A stretch of 64,000 bases of DNA from Candidatus Thiosymbion sp. (GTDB lineage: Bacteria; Pseudomonadota; Gammaproteobacteria; Chromatiales; Chromatiaceae), in contig JAHDND010000004.1 in NCBI GenBank assembly GCA_018435665.1, positions 1 through 64,000 on the forward strand. Direction: 5' to 3'. Position 1 is the first letter of the stretch; the number at the start of each line of letters is the position of its first letter. The notes below the pieces were generated by a model. That model was not told the DNA's origin and did not search any database. It was given only the letters and a program-made list of their open reading frames with translations. The translations under genes and the position numbers were made by a program. This document shows positions 26,426-52,839 of the stretch, one piece after another.

Positions 26426-26588
26426 CCCGGTGCCGGCGAGCGATTGGGTCATCGCGCGGGAAGTTCGCCGGGATCCGTGCCTGGTATGCCAACACCCTCG
26501 GGTTCGGCTTACCCCAAGCCTCTCTTGTCCGTCTGATCAAGATCTGAAATGACTTGGGTATAATCCCTGTCCCTGCTCAGTTGGTTAT

Positions 26589-26757
26589 ACATGTCGTATT
26601 TCAGTTTTTGGCCTTATGTAAGGGAGGGTCGGGTGGCGTCTGGTGGGGGTGTCGACCGCAGGGATGCGGTCGTCAAGCCTCCAGGGATGGATTCACGGCG
26701 TCCCCCGCCAGACGCCACCCGACCCGGGAAACCGAAAATTGATGTGCGAGATGGATA
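26589..26757. repeat. palindromic repeat element, copy 1
   Basis: The inner stem is an 18-bp perfect inverted repeat, GGGTCGGGTGGCGTCTGG at 26626-26643 and its complement at 26708-26725, extended by G-rich/C-rich flanks. Within the loop, GACCGC-AGGGAT-GCGGTC forms a second hairpin. Outer ends (about 30 bases each side, core TTTTYGG / CCGAAAA) are imperfect inverted repeats. It fills the space between nrdD's promoter and the VWA gene. It encodes no transposase and looks like a REP- or MITE-type element. Confidence 0.8.
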
Positions 26758-33393: not shown

Positions 33394-33562
33394 TATACCG
33401 GGCGCATTTTAGTTTTCGGCATTGTCAGGGCGGGTCGGATGGCTTCTGGCGGGGGTGTCGAGCGCAAGGGGGTGGTCGTCAAGCCTATCGGGACCTATTC
33501 AGGTTGCCCCCCGCCAGACGCCACCCGACCCGGAAAATCTGATGTTGATGGGCGATGTCCTT
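33394..33562. repeat. palindromic repeat element, copy 2
   Basis: The inner stem is GGGTCGGATGGCTTCTGG (33432-33449) and CCAGACGCCACCCGACCC (33514-33531), with two mismatched pairs. The CGGGGGTGTCGA and GTCGTCAAGCCT segments are shared with copy 1. The outer ends (GTATAC...TTTTAGTTTTCGGC) also match copy 1. The loop has diverged between copies. Confidence 0.8.
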
Positions 33563-43361: not shown

Positions 43362-44264
43362 ATGGCGGATCGGCGTCTGCAAGTCTTCCATACGGTCGCG
43401 CGCCTGTTGAGCTTCACCAAGGCCGCCGAAACGTTGCACATGACCCAGCCCGCGGTGACCTTTCAGGTGCGCCAGCTCGAGGAGCATTTCAACACCCGCC
43501 TGTTCGACCGCACCCACAATCGCATCAGCCTCACCGCGGCCGGAGAGCAGGTCATGGGCTATGCCGACCGGATCTTCGAGCTCTACGCCGAGATGGAGAA
43601 CTCGGTGCGGGAGTTGACCGGCGAGATCAGCGGCGCCCTGACCATCGGGGCCAGCACCACCATCGCCGAATACATGCTCCCCACCTTGCTGGGGGACTTC
43701 AAGGAGAAATACCCCGAGGTCACCATTCACCTCAAGGTGGCCAACAGCGAGGGGATTGTCTCCCTGGTGGAGAGTAACGCCATCGATCTGGGGGTGGTGG
43801 AATCCACGGTCACCAACAAGAATCTGGCGGTGGAGGTCTGCAAGCGCGACCACCTGGTGGGTATCGTCCCCCCTGGCCATCCCCTGGCCAAGGCGACCGC
43901 GCTCAAGTTCGCCCGGCTGCTGGAATACCCCTTCATCTGCCGCGAGGAAGGCTCCGGCACCCGGGGCGTGATCAGCGAATACCTGGATCAGTTTCCGGAA
44001 TGCGAGGGTGCCCTCAAGATGGCCATGGAACTGGGGAGCCCGGAGGCCGTCAAGGGGGCGGTGGAGGCCGGCATGGGGGTATCCGTGGTGTCGCGGGCGA
44101 CCATCCAGAAGGAACTGCGTCTCGGGACCCTGGTGGCGGTGGAACTGGACCCCCCCCTGGAGCGGCCCTTCTCCTTCGTCCACCAGAAACAGAAGTTCCG
44201 GCTGCGGGTCATGGAAGAGCTCCTGGACTTTGCCAGGGCCTATTGCGAGGAGCATCCGGGCTGA
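43362..44264 (+). CDS. LysR-family transcriptional regulator (CysB/CbbR-like)
   Basis: A 300-residue LysR regulator with the helix-turn-helix FTKAAETLHMTQPAVTFQVRQLEEHF (quoted in part, residues 18-45) and a full effector domain with GAVEAGMGVSVVSRATI near the C-terminus. The AT-rich stretch just upstream (43310-43345) is the likely promoter and autoregulatory site. Because it follows rhd-tusA-dsrE2 it may respond to a sulfur compound, but that is inference. It differs clearly from the LysR protein at 136-1113. Confidence 0.87.
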   Translation: MADRRLQVFHTVARLLSFTKAAETLHMTQPAVTFQVRQLEEHFNTRLFDRTHNRISLTAAGEQVMGYADRIFELYAEMENSVRELTGEISGALTIGASTTIAEYMLPTLLGDFKEKYPEVTIHLKVANSEGIVSLVESNAIDLGVVESTVTNKNLAVEVCKRDHLVGIVPPGHPLAKATALKFARLLEYPFICREEGSGTRGVISEYLDQFPECEGALKMAMELGSPEAVKGAVEAGMGVSVVSRATIQKELRLGTLVAVELDPPLERPFSFVHQKQKFRLRVMEELLDFARAYCEEHPG

Positions 44265-44270
44265 GTGCTC

Positions 44271-44357
44271 GTGAAAAATCTGTTTCCCCTCCGCCGCGAA
44301 CGCGCTATCTCGTGGTTAGCGTCCAGGCCCGGATTCCTGACAAAGCGTTTTTTTCAC
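44271..44357 (+). repeat. 88-bp repeat, copy A
   Basis: It begins GTGAAAAATC and ends TTTTTTTCAC, so its ends are inverted repeats. It contains GCGCTATCTCGTGGTTA. About 70% of positions match copy B at 45927-46014 in the same orientation. Copies A and B flank the hypothetical gene and the permease gene. Confidence 0.7.
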
Positions 44358-44425
44358 GGACACTGATCTCAGGTCGCGTGCCGGAGCATCGTCCCGCGCC
44401 GCTACTTTCCTCTGGAACCACCCAC

Positions 44426-44856: not shown

Positions 44857-45930
44857 ATGCAGGTCATCACTGACTGGTTTCGGCGCTATTTTTCCGATCC
44901 CCAGGTCGTCTTTCTGGCCGCGGCCCTTCTGGTGGGTTTCGCCGTGGTCCTCTCCATGGGCTACATGCTGGCCCCGGCCCTGGCGAGCATCGTCATCGCC
45001 TATCTCCTGGAGGGCCTGGTCTCCTACCTCCAGCGTTATGGCTGGCCGCGCCTGGTCGCGGTGCTGGTGGTCTATGTCGCCTTTCTGGTCTTCGTCATCA
45101 CCCTCCTCTTTGGCGTCATCCCCGTGGTGTCGCGCCAGGTGACGGACCTGGTGCAGCAGCTCCCCTCCATGATCTCCTCCGGTCTGGTCTTCCTTGGCCA
45201 GTTACCGGAGCGCTATCCGGAGGTAATCTCCCCGGACCAGGTCCAGCAGGTCATCGGCACCATCCGCGCCGAGATCACCAGCTTTGGCCAGGGTGTCCTG
45301 TCCTGGTCCCTGGCTTCGGTGGTGGGCTTCATCACCCTGCTGGTCTATGTGATTCTGGTGCCCCTGCTGGTGTTTTTCTTCCTCAAGGACAAGGAGTTGA
45401 TCATTGCCTGGTTCATGAGTTATCTCCCTAAACATACCCGAATCGCCGGTACCGTCTGGCATGATGTCGACCGGCAGATCTCCAACTATGTGCGGGGCAA
45501 ATTCTGGGAGATCCTCATCGTCTGGGCCGCCACCCTGATCGGCTTCCAGGTGATGGGGCTCAATTACGCCATGTTGCTTGCCCTGCTGGTGGGGCTGTCG
45601 GTGATCATCCCCTACATCGGCGCCTCGGTGGTGACCATTCCCGTGCTCCTGGTCGGTTGGTTCCAGTGGGGTTGGTCCAGCGAGTTCGCCTGGATGGCCT
45701 CGGTGTACTTCATCATCCAGGCCCTGGATGGAAACGTGCTGGTGCCGCTGCTCTTCTCCGAGGTGGTCAATCTCCACCCGGTCGCCATCATCGTCGCCAT
45801 CCTGGTCTTTGGCGGCCTCTGGGGGTTTTGGGGCGTCTTTTTCGCCATCCCCCTGGCGACCCTGGTGCAGGCGATCCTGACCGCCTGGCCGCGGGCAAAT
45901 GGCGAGACCCTCGCACCTGAGGGCTTGTGA
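44857..45930 (+). CDS. AI-2E family transporter / PerM-like permease
   Basis: A 357-residue polytopic inner-membrane protein. Helices occur at about 18-65 and 68-95, followed by a hydrophilic domain (105-165) and a C-terminal helical bundle containing VGLSVIIPYIGASVVT and ALDGNVLVPLLFSEVVNLHPV. These segments are typical of the PerM branch of the AI-2E family. Substrate unknown. It is the second family member in the window and is not close in sequence to the one at 20249-21355. Its stop codon lies inside repeat copy B. Confidence 0.88.
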   Translation: MQVITDWFRRYFSDPQVVFLAAALLVGFAVVLSMGYMLAPALASIVIAYLLEGLVSYLQRYGWPRLVAVLVVYVAFLVFVITLLFGVIPVVSRQVTDLVQQLPSMISSGLVFLGQLPERYPEVISPDQVQQVIGTIRAEITSFGQGVLSWSLASVVGFITLLVYVILVPLLVFFFLKDKELIIAWFMSYLPKHTRIAGTVWHDVDRQISNYVRGKFWEILIVWAATLIGFQVMGLNYAMLLALLVGLSVIIPYIGASVVTIPVLLVGWFQWGWSSEFAWMASVYFIIQALDGNVLVPLLFSEVVNLHPVAIIVAILVFGGLWGFWGVFFAIPLATLVQAILTAWPRANGETLAPEGL

Positions 45931-46014
45931 ATAATTCCGTTTCTGCTCAGCCACATGCGTGCTATCGCGTTGTTATTGAGGGTGCCCAGAAGCCTGATCA
46001 GCTGTTTTTTTCAC
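45927..46014 (+). repeat. 88-bp repeat, copy B
   Basis: It begins GTGAATAATT and ends TTTTTTTCAC and shares GCTATC-CGT-GTTA and CCTGA blocks with copy A. It overlaps the permease stop codon. The T-rich end may act as a terminator. Confidence 0.7.
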
Positions 46015-46247
46015 CGCCTCTGAGGGCGCGCGTCAGGGCATGAGGACAGGCGCCAGCGCACCGCCCTCCGTCTTCCGTCCTCCGTCCTCCGTCCTCCGCG
46101 GGGAAGCCCGGCTGCCCGGCACCGGCCCCAAAAGTTCCCGACCCTTTTCGCCGCTTTCGGACATTCTCCCGATGGGTTGTTGCTGGCGGCGGTGAGGGTG
46201 AACCCACAAGTCTCTGACCCTTTTCATCGCTTCCAGACACTCACCCC
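46015..46247. other. intergenic region upstream of htrA with short repeats
   Basis: The sequence holds five 7-bp tandem units of CTCCGTC type at 46066-46100. It also holds the first arm of a 48-bp direct repeat (46127-46174), whose second arm includes the start codon of the protease. No gene is seen here. Confidence 0.6.
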
Positions 46248-46250: not shown

Positions 46251-47372
46251 CGCTCCCTCACCACGGCCCGGTTCCTCTTTTGGTTCGCCCTCTTTCTGCT
46301 GCTGGCCCTCGCCTTGCGACCCTGGGTCGAGGACCTGCTGATCAGTTTTCGCGCCGAGCCCCGGGCCATCGCCCCCCGGGGCGATCTCGCCGGGGACGAA
46401 CAGACCACCATCGCCATCTTCGAGGCCTCCACCCCGGCGGTGGTCTTCATCACCACCACCACCCGGGTCCTGGACCTCTGGACCCGGGACATCACCGAGA
46501 TCCCCCGCGGCACCGGCTCGGGCTTCATCTGGGACGATCAGGGGCACGTCGTCACCAATTATCATGTCATCAAGGGCGTCCGCTCGGCCCAGGTCGGGCT
46601 CTGGGATCAGCGCAGCTATGAGGCGGATATCGTCGGTGCCAGCCCGGACCACGACCTGGCCGTGCTGCGCATCCGCGTCCCGACCTCCCGCCCGGCCCCC
46701 CTGCCCATCGGCACCAGCCAGGACCTGCGGGTCGGTCAGAAGGTCCTGGCCATCGGCAACCCCTTCGGCCTGGACTACAGCCTGACCACCGGCGTCATCT
46801 CCGCCCTGGATCGCACCATCCGCGGGGAACAGGGCCAGACCATCCAACACCTGATTCAGACCGATGCCGCCATCAACCCGGGCAATTCCGGGGGTCCGCT
46901 GCTCGACAGCGCCGGCCGCCTGATCGGTGTCAACACCGCTATCTACAGCCCCTCCGGGGCCTTTGCCGGCATCGGCTTCGCCGTGCCGGTGGACACGGTC
47001 AACCGGGTGGTGCCGGAGCTGATCGCCCGGGGGCACTTCCAACGGCCCAGCCTGGGTATCCGCGCCGACGATGCCATCAGCGATCGCATTCTGGAGCAGT
47101 TGGGCCTGGAAGGGGTGCTGATCCTGCGGGTGGAGCCCGGCTCGGCGGCGGAGGCGGCTGGCCTGCGGGGGACCAAGGCGGAACGCGGGGGAGGCGTTAT
47201 CATCGGCGACATCATCCTCGCCGTGAACGGTCAAGCGGTGAGAAATCTGGTGGAACTCGCCGACCGGCTGGAAGGCCAGCAGGTCGGCGATCAGGTCATC
47301 CTCACCCTCGACCGGGGAGGGCAGCGGCTGGAGGTGGGCGTCACCCTGGAGGGAGGACGCCCCGGGTCCTGA
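46248..47372 (+). CDS. S1C-family trypsin-like periplasmic protease (HtrA/DegP-like) with one PDZ domain
   Basis: A 374-residue membrane-anchored or secreted serine protease. The N-terminal hydrophobic segment (residues 8-25) is followed by a trypsin-like domain with His106 (TNYHVIKG), Asp136 (DHDLAVLRI) and Ser214 (GNSGGPL). A single C-terminal PDZ domain (about 270-365) includes VEPGSAAEAAGL and DIILAVNGQ. One PDZ domain plus a membrane anchor resembles DegS-like proteases more than two-PDZ DegP. Its stop abuts the convergent FmdB gene with no gap. Upstream lies a 48-bp direct repeat. Confidence 0.92.
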   Translation: MRSLTTARFLFWFALFLLLALALRPWVEDLLISFRAEPRAIAPRGDLAGDEQTTIAIFEASTPAVVFITTTTRVLDLWTRDITEIPRGTGSGFIWDDQGHVVTNYHVIKGVRSAQVGLWDQRSYEADIVGASPDHDLAVLRIRVPTSRPAPLPIGTSQDLRVGQKVLAIGNPFGLDYSLTTGVISALDRTIRGEQGQTIQHLIQTDAAINPGNSGGPLLDSAGRLIGVNTAIYSPSGAFAGIGFAVPVDTVNRVVPELIARGHFQRPSLGIRADDAISDRILEQLGLEGVLILRVEPGSAAEAAGLRGTKAERGGGVIIGDIILAVNGQAVRNLVELADRLEGQQVGDQVILTLDRGGQRLEVGVTLEGGRPGS

Positions 47373-47633
47373 TCAGAAGCCGCACATCCCCGAGGGACAG
47401 CAGCCGCCGGCGCCACAGGCGGGGGCGGGGGCCATGCCGCTGCCCAGGCTGCTCTTGGATATGAGGTTGCCGCCGGTGGCGAGGCGATGGACCGGTGCGT
47501 CCGCCGGGGTCCCGCCCAGCTCGACCCCGGCCCGGGCGCAGAGATCGCCCCAGTTGGCGATGGTCTCGCTCATGCGATGGCTGACCTCGACCACCCGGTC
47601 ATTGATGTCACAACGATAGTCGTATGTAGGCAT
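47373..47633 (-). CDS. FmdB-family zinc-ribbon protein
   Basis: An 86-residue small protein starting PTYDYRCDINDRVVEV, the typical FmdB N-terminus, though the second Cys of the usual CxxC is absent. The C-terminus has its own cysteine cluster (ACGAGGCCPSGMCGF). Related FmdB proteins are possible regulators of formamide/amide metabolism genes; function is unproven. AAGGAG lies six bases upstream of the ATG, inside the perfect palindrome GGAGTACTCC. A further inverted repeat precedes it. Confidence 0.75.
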   Translation of the reverse strand: MPTYDYRCDINDRVVEVSHRMSETIANWGDLCARAGVELGGTPADAPVHRLATGGNLISKSSLGSGMAPAPACGAGGCCPSGMCGF

Positions 47634-47646
47634 GGAGTACTCCTTA

Positions 47647-47670
47647 GAATATCAGGAATGGCTGATATTC
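47647..47670 (-). promoter_or_regulatory. palindromic operator or hairpin upstream of fmdB-type gene
   Basis: GAATATCAG-N6-CTGATATTC is a perfect 9-bp inverted repeat 13 bases upstream of the ATG and just upstream of the AAGGAG. It could bind a dimeric repressor or form an RNA hairpin near the ribosome site. I cannot match it to a named regulator. Confidence 0.55.
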
Positions 47671-47768
47671 CAATTATATCGGTGGGCGAAAGGCTGACAA
47701 GCCAGCAATTCGTGCGGATTACCCGACCCTCCCTATCCATACCGAATATGGAAATGGGCAGCGGGCCT

Positions 47769-48443
47769 TCAGGCGGGAAAGCGCCGGATGGCCAGGTGGC
47801 GGTCACTCACCACCACGACTTCCAGGTCGGGGATGCCCGCCGCCTCCAGTTGCGCCCGGATCTCGGCGGGCTCGTAGGCGGCGAAGAGGGTGGCGCGAAA
47901 ATCCTGTTGCAGGCTGGCCGGGAGATCGTCGGCGTAAGTGGCGACCAGGGATTCGGCCCATCCGGGCGAGGGGGGGCGCATTAGGTCCATGACCAGGAGC
48001 GGCGCCCCTGGTTTGAGGACGCGCTGGATTGCGCGCCAGAGGTCCAGGGGGTCATCGAGACGATGGAGCAGGTCAGCAGAGAGGACCAGGCCATAGGTGG
48101 CCGCGGGAAGGTCAGCGCTTGAGAGGTCCCCGGAGAGGATCCGGCAGCGACGCGCGACCCCGGGCATGGCCGACAGTGCGCTCGCCAGGGGTTCCAGCCG
48201 GGCGGGCACCGGATCGACCAGGTAACAGCGCGCCTTTGGCCAGGCCTTGAGAAAACCGATAGGGGCCGGGCCGGGCCACCCGCCAAGGGCCAGGGCGAGC
48301 TGGCCCGACAAGTCTCCCGGCTGCATTTCCCGCAGCAGCCGCAGGAAGAGGGCGTCGGTCTCGGTGTGGTCCGCGCTGGCCCAGGCCTGCGCCAGCAGCC
48401 GCTCCTCCTCAGGCCCGCGCGGGGGCAGGGGACGGCGTTTCAC
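47769..48443 (-). CDS. class I SAM-dependent methyltransferase
   Basis: A 224-residue soluble methyltransferase. The SAM-binding region is degenerate at the first glycine-rich motif (LALALGGWPGPAPIGFL), with CYLVDPVPARL as motif I/II. YGLVLSADLLHRLDDPLDLWRAI (quoted in part) and LKPGAPLLVMDLMRPP are UbiE-like post motifs. Substrate unknown. The start is uncertain: a GTG at 48443 is chosen because it begins the conserved sequence; an ATG at 48593 would add 50 residues overlapping no homology and with no ribosome site. Confidence 0.65.
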   Translation of the reverse strand: MKRRPLPPRGPEEERLLAQAWASADHTETDALFLRLLREMQPGDLSGQLALALGGWPGPAPIGFLKAWPKARCYLVDPVPARLEPLASALSAMPGVARRCRILSGDLSSADLPAATYGLVLSADLLHRLDDPLDLWRAIQRVLKPGAPLLVMDLMRPPSPGWAESLVATYADDLPASLQQDFRATLFAAYEPAEIRAQLEAAGIPDLEVVVVSDRHLAIRRFPA

Positions 48444-48614
48444 GCGCCCGGTCCCGCATAATGGGCGCGGGGGCGCCGGCGCCAAGTCAAAAGCAAAAGC
48501 CGCCGGTTGATGGATCGGGGCCAATGATTTGACAGAGGCCAACGACCGGCTGGATTGCGCCAGAACCAGGATGGGCGGCGCGGGTACCGGCATTGCGTAG
48601 TTTGGCGCCGCTGG

Positions 48615-48683
48615 CTCTGGCGCGCGATTCTGCGCGCCATCAAAGCCGGGGCGCCGCTCATGGTCATGGACATGATCCGCAGC
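48615..48683 (+). pseudogene. inverted fragment of the methyltransferase gene
   Basis: These 69 bases match, in reverse orientation, 69 bases of the methyltransferase gene at 47973-48041 with 13 differences and no gaps. The plus-strand translation LWRAILRAIKAGAPLMVMDM parallels the gene's LWRAIQRVLKPGAPLLVMDL. Neither end continues into a methyltransferase frame, so it is a remnant, possibly of an inverted duplication. It lies between lysA and the methyltransferase start. Confidence 0.75.
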
Positions 48684-48693
48684 CCATGGCTGC

Positions 48694-49941
48694 TCATGGC
48701 AGCCGGGCCTCACCCGCAAAGAGACTGGCCACCGTCTCCCGGGGCCGGGCCAGATGGACCTGGGCACCGTCGACCATGACCTCCGCGGCGCGGGGGCGGC
48801 TGTTGTAATTGGAACTCATGGTAAAGCCATAGGCGCCGCTGCCGCGGATGGCCAGCAGGTCCCCGGTTGCCAGGGCCAGGTCGCGGCCCTTGCCGAGGAA
48901 GTCACCGGTCTCGCACACCGGACCCACCAGATCCCAGAGGCCGCGCTCAGCGCCCTCCTTGCGCTCGGCGGGGACGATGTCCTGGACCGCCTGGTAGAGG
49001 GCGGGGCGCACCAGGTCGTTCATGGCGGCATCGAGGATGGCGAAGCGCTTGAGCCCCGTGTCCTTGAGATACTCCACCCGGGTCAGCAGGATGCCGGCAT
49101 TGCCGGCGATGGCGCGGCCCGGCTCCAGCAGGATTTCGTAATGGCGCCCCTCCAGCAGGTCATCGAGGGCGCGGGCGTATTCAGCGGGCTCTGGCGGGGA
49201 TTCATGGGTGTAGCGGATGCCCAGGCCACCGCCCAGGTCCAGGTGCTCGATGGGGATGCCAAAGCGCTCTAGGCGGTCGGCCAGCTCCAGGACCCGGGCC
49301 AGGGCGTCGAGGAAGGGCGCCAGCTCGGTGAGCTGCGAGCCGATGTGGCAGTCGATGCCGGCGACCCGCAGGTGGGGGCTGGCGGCGGCGCGCTCGTAGA
49401 CCCGGTCGGCGGCATGGATGTCGATGCCAAACTTGTTCTCGCGCAGGCCGGTGGAGATATAGGGATGGGTACCGGCGTCTACGTCCGGGTTGACGCGGAT
49501 CGACACCGGGGCGACGACGCCCAGGGCGGCGGCGACCCCCTCCAGCCGTTCCAGCTCAGCCTCCGACTCCAGGTTGAAGCAGCGAATGCCAACCTCCAGG
49601 GCGCGGCGCATTTCATCCGCGCGCTTGCCGACGCCGGAAAAGATGACCTTGGCCGGGTCACCCCCCGCCGCCAGCACCCGTTCCAGTTCCCCGACGGAGA
49701 CGATATCGAAGCCCGAGCCCAGGCGGGCCAGGACATCGAGTACCGCCAGGTTGGAGTTGGCCTTGACGGCGAAGCAGATGAGATGGGGATGGTGGCCGAA
49801 GGCGGTATCGAAGGCCCGCCAATGGCGCTCCAGGGTGGCGCGGGAGTAGACGTAGCAGGGGGTGCCAAAGCGCGCGGCGATATTAGCGACCGGCACCTCC
49901 TCGGCGTAAAGGCGATGTTCCTGGTACTGGAAGTGGTCCAT
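48694..49941 (-). CDS. lysA: diaminopimelate decarboxylase
   Basis: Makes L-lysine from meso-diaminopimelate with pyridoxal phosphate. The 415-residue protein has the PLP lysine in CFAVKANSN, SGFDIVSVGEL, the HIGSQL motif, GGGLGIRY, and the terminal CETGDFLGKGRDL and GAYGFTMSSNYNSRPR blocks. The ATG at 49941 has AGGA nine bases upstream and gives the canonical YxxxxLYAEEVPV start. It follows lptM on the same strand, a conserved arrangement. Confidence 0.96.
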   Translation of the reverse strand: MDHFQYQEHRLYAEEVPVANIAARFGTPCYVYSRATLERHWRAFDTAFGHHPHLICFAVKANSNLAVLDVLARLGSGFDIVSVGELERVLAAGGDPAKVIFSGVGKRADEMRRALEVGIRCFNLESEAELERLEGVAAALGVVAPVSIRVNPDVDAGTHPYISTGLRENKFGIDIHAADRVYERAAASPHLRVAGIDCHIGSQLTELAPFLDALARVLELADRLERFGIPIEHLDLGGGLGIRYTHESPPEPAEYARALDDLLEGRHYEILLEPGRAIAGNAGILLTRVEYLKDTGLKRFAILDAAMNDLVRPALYQAVQDIVPAERKEGAERGLWDLVGPVCETGDFLGKGRDLALATGDLLAIRGSGAYGFTMSSNYNSRPRAAEVMVDGAQVHLARPRETVASLFAGEARLP

Positions 49942-50121
49942 GGGCGGGTTTCCTGGCGGTCGCGAGTAACGGAGGTTGTCGTTTGGCGATCTGGGTTCGG
50001 CAGGGTTTGTATCCAAATCGGTGTGGCAAGGGCCGCCGGCATCCCCGTCTGGTCTGGGGTGGTTGGAGCCGGTCAGTGCCGGTCCAATAAGGGGGCCGCA
50101 TCCACTGGCTGCCACCTCTGG

Positions 50122-50358
50122 CTAACGTATGGGTGGTGGCAGCGGTTCGGGGCCGGGGATCTCGGGTGGGGCGGCTGTGGGCGTAGCCGCCGGTTCGGCC
50201 TTGCTCTTGTCCTTGCCAGCGGCTTTACCCGCTGCAGGTTGAGAGGCCTGATCATCAGGCAGGTAGAGCGGGCCTTTCTGTCCGCAGGCGGCCATCATTT
50301 GGCCGATGCCCAGAATGATGACGATGACGATGAAGAGTTGGCGGCCCCAACAAAGCAT
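50122..50358 (-). CDS. lptM: LptM-family small lipoprotein (YifL)
   Basis: A 78-residue lipoprotein with a hydrophobic N-terminus, the lipobox MAAC (Cys25), and the family signature CGQKGPLYLPDD. The rest is Pro/Ala-rich. LptM promotes oxidative maturation of the LPS translocon LptDE in Escherichia coli. It precedes lysA by 180 bases, the usual neighbour. The start at 50358 fits a normal signal peptide. Confidence 0.85.
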   Translation of the reverse strand: MLCWGRQLFIVIVIILGIGQMMAACGQKGPLYLPDDQASQPAAGKAAGKDKSKAEPAATPTAAPPEIPGPEPLPPPIR

Positions 50359-50553
50359 GGCTGGCGGTTCCGGCGGTCAGAGGGGTAGGAAGGCGGCGCT
50401 GCGGGTCAGGGGGAGCGGCGGGTCAGGTCTTCGCTCTTCAGGTGATATCGCTAAGGCGCTTCGGTATTCGGTTGGGCAAGAAAGGTCAGTTTGCGGTCAG
50501 GCACAGAAGGGTCAGAGTCGGAGGGCGGCTGGAGATCCGCATCCGCCATCAGG

Positions 50554-50979: not shown

Positions 50980-52319
50980 GGGGCGCGATCCAGGACCTGG
51001 AGTCGGTCGGCGGCCTTGAGCGGGCGGACGAGCGGCTGGAGGGCGGTTAGCTCCGCCGGCAAGGCGGCCTTGGCGGCAGCGGCGGCGGCGGCATCTGGGT
51101 AGAGGCCGAAGAAGACCGCATACCAGGGCCGCCCCCCCCGGCTCTCGGTGCGGTAGTAGACCCGCGACGGCAGGTCCGTCCGCTGGGCGAAGCGCCGGAC
51201 GGCTTCCAGGTCACGAAAGCTGATGAGTTGTAGGGCCTGCTGGGGTTCCGCCAGCACCAGAGCGCTCTCGCCGGGTACTGTGCCTGACCCGGAATCCGTC
51301 GCGGTCTGGGCCTCGCCGATGGCGGCGAGGCCAGGCGCGGAGGAGGGGCCAGCGGGGGGGCTGGCGGCGGTCGGTGGCTGGCCCTGGGTCTGGTCGCCGG
51401 GGGTGGCCGCTGTAGGCTGATTCCCGGCCTCCTTCGTGGCCGTGGCGGCGGCTTGCGCCGCGCTGCCAGGTGCGTCGACACTTCCGGCGGCTTTGGTCGC
51501 CGCCGGTTCGGCAGGGGATTCCTCGGGGGCGAAAGACTTCTGCTCCAGGGGGAGATTGGCGGAGGCCAGGATAGTGGCCAGGCTGTCGCGCAGGAGCAGC
51601 ATGTCCTTGCCCAGCCGTTCCTGGGCCTTCTGGAGGTCTTCGACCTTCTTCGCCAGATCCGTGCCGGCGGTCTTGAGCGCCTCGACCTCATCGTTCCGCG
51701 CCACGGGTTCCGCCGTCGGCTCGGTCTTGCTGGCCAGGGTCTCTTCCAGCCCTTTGAGGCGAGTGGCGAGATCGTTTACCCCGGACTGACGGGCCACGAC
51801 TGTTTCCTCCAGATCGCCGGACAGACGGGTCACCGCCTCGTCCAGTTGTCCCAGCCGCTTGTCGAGGGGCGCGGTATCGATTTCCGACAGGCGGGCCACC
51901 GCCTCCTGGATGCCACTCAGTTGGCCGCTGATCTCCGCCTTGTTGGCATCGGCCTGGAAATAGCTGAAGACCATGGCGCCGACCGCCAGTAGCAGGGCGA
52001 GGAGGACGAACAGGGTCGAGGCCAGGCCGCGACGGCGCAGGTCGTCGTCAAACTCATCCCGCTGGGCATCCAGGGCACGTCGGACCTCGATGCCGGTCCG
52101 GCGACGGTCGTCATCGACATCGGCGATCCGGCCGATGAGGGCGACCTCGGTATCCCGTAGTTTGCTGGCCAGGGTCTCCAGGGTAAGGTGGATAGACGCC
52201 AGGCGCTCGTCCACACCCGGCGCCGTGGTGTCTGACGCTGGGATTACCGGCGGGCCGTCTGGGGTGGTCGGGACGGGTTCCGCAGGGTTGCGAGGGGCTG
52301 CGGCAGGTACTGGTTCCAT
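50976..52319 (-). CDS. SPOR-domain membrane protein with coiled coil
   Basis: A 447-residue protein with a cytoplasmic N-terminal region (1-95), one membrane helix (about 98-120, LASTLFVLLALLLAVGAMVF), and a long periplasmic coiled coil (125-265). An Ala/Thr/Pro-rich spacer (265-360) and a C-terminal SPOR-like domain (ALQLISFRDLEAVRRFAQRT, WYAVFFGLYPDAAAA in part) follow. SPOR domains bind denuded peptidoglycan at the division septum. It is probably an envelope or cell-division factor and is co-transcribed with the YgbA-like gene. Confidence 0.75.
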   Translation of the reverse strand: MEPVPAAAPRNPAEPVPTTPDGPPVIPASDTTAPGVDERLASIHLTLETLASKLRDTEVALIGRIADVDDDRRRTGIEVRRALDAQRDEFDDDLRRRGLASTLFVLLALLLAVGAMVFSYFQADANKAEISGQLSGIQEAVARLSEIDTAPLDKRLGQLDEAVTRLSGDLEETVVARQSGVNDLATRLKGLEETLASKTEPTAEPVARNDEVEALKTAGTDLAKKVEDLQKAQERLGKDMLLLRDSLATILASANLPLEQKSFAPEESPAEPAATKAAGSVDAPGSAAQAAATATKEAGNQPTAATPGDQTQGQPPTAASPPAGPSSAPGLAAIGEAQTATDSGSGTVPGESALVLAEPQQALQLISFRDLEAVRRFAQRTDLPSRVYYRTESRGGRPWYAVFFGLYPDAAAAAAAKAALPAELTALQPLVRPLKAADRLQVLDRAP

Positions 52320-52509
52320 GGGGTGGCGGCTCCCGATGCTCTAAATGGGCGGTAGCGGCTAGGCCATAACGCCAAGGTTGGCGGCGGTGGTTCGATCGTG
52401 CCAGGGTGGCTGGTTTGTCGGCGGGTGCCAGCTCGTTAAATGACAATGATCTCCCAGGCGGGGCGGGATTCCAAGTGGAAACCGCGCCCTGGCGGGGGGC
52501 AGGCAATTT

Positions 52510-52839
52510 TTAGCTTTCCCACATCACATTCTTCCCCCGTGCCGCCGCCGCGGCCAGCAGATCGATGAGGGGCAGCGCCCGGTTGGCCAGGCTCACGTGG
52601 CGACCCGCCTCCTCGTCACCCGGGGCCTGGTGGCCGCCGGCCCGGGGCGCCGGGTCCAGGGTATCTTGGGGGTGCTCTGCCACCGCGGCCTTGAGCCGCG
52701 CGAGGGCGACAGGGATGTCCTCCGCCAGCAGGGCGCCAGGCACCCGGCCGCTTTGGCCCATGAGCTTGAGCAAGGTCAGCGCCACGTCGCCGAACATGAT
52801 GATGTCGGCATGGGCCTCGGTTTTGAAGGTGACCAGCAT
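52510..52839 (-). CDS. DUF1840 family protein
   Basis: A 109-residue cytoplasmic protein that matches DUF1840: MLVTFKTEAHADIIMFGDVA at the start, LLKLMGQSGRVPGALLAEDI, and a Pro/Gly-rich spacer before RALPLIDLLAAAAARGKNVMWE at the end (quoted in part). Function is unknown. It is preceded by a 264-base divergent region shared with the secreted cysteine-rich protein gene. Confidence 0.85.
   Translation of the reverse strand: MLVTFKTEAHADIIMFGDVALTLLKLMGQSGRVPGALLAEDIPVALARLKAAVAEHPQDTLDPAPRAGGHQAPGDEEAGRHVSLANRALPLIDLLAAAAARGKNVMWES

Follow-up and report, generated by a model that had tools for sequence, protein, structure and literature searches.

A short inverted copy of a methyltransferase gene in the lysA-methyltransferase spacer of a Candidatus Thiosymbion genome, probably an old templated insertion

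The spacer between lysA and a class I methyltransferase-fold gene (here MT) of Candidatus Thiosymbion sp. holds a short, decayed and inverted copy of part of MT. We consider it most probable (roughly 85%) that this copy is a one-off inverted templated insertion, with the opposite strand of MT as template, followed by neutral decay. In this sense, an ancestor living after the split from the sampled congeners would have acquired about 60-76 nt of templated sequence in the lysA-MT spacer, the template being the opposite strand of MT codons about 570 nt away. Most simply, the polymerase may have switched template for a moment, or a microhomology-primed repair may have had the equivalent effect, and the insert would afterwards have drifted as non-coding DNA. 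The window is the whole stretch of 64,000 nt that was analysed (contig JAHDND010000004.1, positions 1 to 64,000), and it was compared mainly with three congeners, G001, G002 and G003. The features of the region are collected in Table 1.

Table 1. Features of the lysA-MT region, in window positions
Feature	Positions	Strand	Description
MT, class I methyltransferase-fold gene	47769..48443	-	224 aa, starting with GTG; the fragment derives from it
Donor stretch inside MT	47966..48041	-	76 nt; sense reading LWRAIQRVLKPGAPLLVMDLMRPPS
lysA-MT spacer holding the insert	48444..48693	.	250 nt; 253 nt counting the lysA stop codon
Inverted decayed copy of the donor	48615..48690	+	reads LWRAILRAIKAGAPLMVMDMIRSPW; core 48616-48676 (G003 reference) or 48615-48685 (G001 reference)
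lysA, diaminopimelate decarboxylase	48694..49941	-	Pfam PF02784 (E 8.6e-74) and synteny; lies next to MT, upstream, in a conserved gene order

The inverted match and the methyltransferase gene

In an ungapped comparison within the window, 48615-48683 on the plus strand and 47973-48041 on the minus strand agree at 56 of 69 positions, exactly as the first-pass annotation had reported. The ungapped arms lengthen to 76 nt (47966-48041 and 48615-48690, 61 of 76 identical), with 573 nt between them. When the 69-mer was placed without gaps at every position of either strand of the window, matches averaged 19.2 (sd 4.0), and the inverted match is not one of composition, the bias against which a check had been advised, because the other placements reach at most 37/69. 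Likewise, with the 250-nt spacer as blastn query and the window as subject, the inverted match came out at E 1.4e-14 or 7.5e-16, depending on which of two scoring schemes was used, and the next-ranked match at E 0.04. The claim that the fragment still reads in the MT frame was also correct (25 codons without a stop), an open frame that carries little information. When the 25-residue fragment peptide was searched against the 5.0-Mb genome at E <= 10, no match besides the MT gene was found. The piece is present in two places of the genome, the fragment and MT, fewer than a mobile element or dispersed repeat would occupy, a count that speaks against either identity. A 17-nt direct match (48544-48560 with 48018-48034, 88%) was weighed as a possible second fragment but put down to chance, with E 3.1 against the window.

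MT is present in all four genus genomes (that of the window and the three congeners), with 74-78% identity in two congeners; it starts with GTG in the window and G001 and with ATG at the same place in G003 and G002. Pfam assigns it to Methyltransf_11 (E 8.5e-8). An AlphaFold2 model built from a 15-sequence alignment has a mean pLDDT of 89.2, and Foldseek matches it with solved methyltransferases, CouO (5m58_B, E 3.3e-12) being the top one; together with a PDB profile search, it returned general methyltransferase relatives only.

Residues 51-59 of MT read LALGGWPGP in the window, G003 and G001. Of the 18 rows aligned (two of the rows being one locus), the 15 others, congener G002 among them, carry the DxGCG pattern of the SAM-binding motif I at this position. 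In the proteins of the window, G003 and G001 the Pfam Methyltransf_11 match begins only at profile position 19-21, and in four other proteins tested it begins at position 1, though Methyltransf_25 matches the G003 protein from profile position 1. The three genes constitute a possible pseudo-methyltransferase clade, with the predicted fold intact and the gene apparently still constrained.

Source of the fragment and its place in the spacer

Over 75 nt, the fragment shares 60 identities with the window's own MT, 53 with that of G001, 50 with that of G003 and 30-46 with the other 15 aligned genes. In a parsimony analysis of ten sequences over these 75 nt, the fragment as sister to the window MT required 107 steps and the best other placement tried 111; in the bootstrap the grouping was strictly best in 0.9305 and tied in 0.0525 of cases. 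These comparisons point to the window's own MT as the closest relative of the fragment. The 15 differences between the two comprise 11 private to the fragment, 2 private to MT and 2 ambiguous. Both MT-private changes, at segment sites 33 and 60, fall at third positions where the fragment retains the base of both congeners.

About 60-75 nt appear to have been inserted into the lysA-MT spacer, because the G003 spacer aligns to the window spacer on both sides of the piece and the three congeners are without it: the G003 and G001 spacers gave no self-match with MT, and the G002 spacer has only 7 nt. Counting the lysA stop codon, the spacers measure 253 nt in the window, 73 in G003, 229 in G001 and 7 in G002. 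We also used a jump alignment, where the window spacer may be read from the spacer of a relative or from MT antisense. With G003 as recipient it runs recipient, donor, recipient, window 48676 to 48616 being read from donor 47980-48040 (51/61), and its score is 103 compared with at most 81 when 20 random stretches of the window served as donors. For G001 as recipient, the donor part extends from 48685 to 48615 (58/71; score 92, random donors at most 71), and the flank alignment across the insert is weaker than with G003. Past the insert, the jump alignments fragment into short pieces. Template-switch insertions are expected to have precise junctions, often with microhomology. Here the left breakpoint, on the lysA side, is ambiguous by about 10 nt, a blur due to the age of the event (20% divergence), and therefore microhomology or a small target duplication is not readable.

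About 90 nt of the spacer (48480-48575) are also absent from G003 and lie outside the insert explanation. The stretch 48444-48612 matched only itself in the genome at E <= 0.01, Rfam was without a match in 47000-50500 (E <= 0.1), and a scan of 47600-48900 returned no terminator-like site.

The order of the two genes is conserved: in 24 of the 25 loci examined, lysA immediately precedes MT and shares its strand (L072 is the exception). These 24 loci represent about 22 distinct ones, given that L006 and L067 are one contig (6,751 nt) in two collections, as are L013 and L068 (143,727 nt). In 18 of the 24 the spacer measures -16 to 22 nt and, being under 30 nt, is therefore unable to hold an inverted piece. 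For the six with longer spacers, L003 (the window), L008, L004, L005, L009 and L074, each spacer was searched by BLAST for matches to the MT of its own locus. Besides the inverted match in L003, those of L004, L005, L009 and L074 gave none, and that of L008 gave a weak same-strand match (39 nt, 69%, E 0.002).

The first-pass annotation had suggested an old inverted duplication of MT followed by decay of one copy. Inverted duplication and decay stand, but the copy seems to have spanned only about 60-76 nt. That a complete inverted second gene was once here, the rest of which decayed or was deleted, would agree with the 25-codon open frame of the piece and its position adjoining the gene; we regard it as improbable, since the G003 spacer directly matches both sides of the piece and the window spacer has no further significant match to MT, whereas the remnant of a full duplicate would be expected to leave further pieces in order. 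Moreover, among the 24 lysA-MT loci, six with spacers long enough to compare, the inverted piece was found in that of the window only. A capture from a paralogue, the other suggestion made at first, or from the MT of a relative by horizontal transfer is likewise hard to sustain. The 20% divergence from the present MT allows a foreign source, but the window's own MT is the nearest gene, the two having in common four bases (segment sites 3, 21, 36 and 43) that G003, G001 and G002 are without. The genome has no other close MT, its only other MT-like match at E <= 0.001 being 26% identical, and in a search of 210 family genomes with the insert, where few candidates were scored per genome, the top match outside the window genome was the MT of G001.

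Decay, age and possible function of the insert

The changes private to the fragment are 9 nonsynonymous and 2 synonymous, against a random expectation of 73% nonsynonymous; coding constraint on the fragment is unsupported by these counts. For MT codons with a single difference, the nonsynonymous:synonymous counts are 29:53 between the window and G003 (Fisher p 0.006 against the fragment) and 33:55 between the window and G001 (p 0.008), bearing in mind that the first comparison mixes polarised changes of the fragment with unpolarised ones of the gene. Codon-position counts alone do not separate fragment from gene, either as third positions 3/11 vs 63/130 (p 0.22) or in an alternative count of 6/15 vs 63/130 (p 0.59). 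Two residues invariant across 15 aligned homologues, L154 and P157, are altered in the fragment. From its sequence, the fragment appears to have drifted as non-coding DNA, with a pattern of change as expected of neutral decay.

The copy would have been made on the window lineage, after the split from the sampled congeners and perhaps soon after that from G003, because the fragment-private divergence of 0.163 per site (Jukes-Cantor) compares with 0.23 per lineage for MT and 0.13 for lysA (fourfold-site distances between window and G003 of 0.46 and 0.26, respectively); this dating is rough.

It is conceivable that the insert is retained as an element of the lysA-MT transcript that adjusts MT expression by pairing with the coding region of MT, an idea to which we give very little credit. 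The minus-strand arms can pair with each other, and folding predictions give the 741-nt transcript a long helix over this stretch (z -7.2 against 20 shuffles). However, any inverted copy would yield such a helix, which is predicted here because of the inversion itself; furthermore, of the 15 mismatches just one would allow a G-U pair, the MT start lies in the 573-nt loop that separates the arms, and the private changes look neutral. We find it equally far-fetched that the insert is, or is turning into, a self-derived antisense cassette, that is, a backward piece of a gene in its own leader whose RNA acts in cis, pairing with and dampening the same message. A functional role of the insert seems unlikely.

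Proposed template switching, other repeats and meaning of the insert

Gene fragments and pseudogene remnants occur in bacterial spacers, and the insert resembles them in being an incomplete copy of coding sequence that decays between genes. Unlike such remnants, it was apparently never a whole gene here and seems to have arrived as a fragment. A template switch to the opposite strand, which is the molecular event that we infer, fits because the copy is a short reverse complement, its template is nearby and the flanks are retained; microhomology-primed repair would leave the same anatomy. A study of short-range template switch mutations presents a four-point model (PMC7954356), and the mutations described there likewise consist of a short reverse complement of nearby sequence with normal flanks, forming an inverted repeat. 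By comparison, the two sites here have about 570 nt between them, and the event is an old one. That study concerns great apes; for the traditional prokaryotic event, it gives quasi-palindrome conversion as the hallmark (PMC7954356). By title and start of abstract, none of the literature found on template-switch insertions, spacer gene fragments and lysA-methyltransferase concerned this locus.

When 254.7 kb (contigs C188 and C200) were scanned for inverted pairs within 3 kb that have at least 40 nt and 44 bits, leaving aside palindromes that match their own interval, the two arms were the only such pair; a process that produces these pairs frequently is therefore not in evidence here.

Repeats of other kinds were also observed. 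An abundant repeat, about 160 bp long and containing 24-mers in inverted orientation, presumably REPIN- or MITE-like, lies at 26582-26749 and 33394-33555 (plus strand), with about 13 copies in the 254.7 kb and no Rfam match at gathering score. The starts of its 24-mers are 76 nt apart in the copy from the window, and also in many of the places listed for G001 and G003. Allowing up to 3 mismatches, 24-mer sites number 191 in the window genome, 79 in G001, 84 in G003 and 56 in G002, with none for a reversed control. A direct pair at 44236-44366 and 45893-46023 (plus strand; 67% over 132 nt) includes, for each of two genes, the 3' end and the spacer that follows. On contig C200, a 1.2-kb direct repeat with 97% identity (51578-52769 and 66914-68104) is perhaps an insertion sequence.

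The insert appears to be a neat but ordinary copying-error scar, with no evident biological role. It constitutes a clean and polarised bacterial case of an inverted templated insertion, in which the donor, insert-free relatives and the relative age are all readable, and may be added to tallies of such events. Biochemically, more interest attaches to the altered SAM motif in the donor gene than to the insert.
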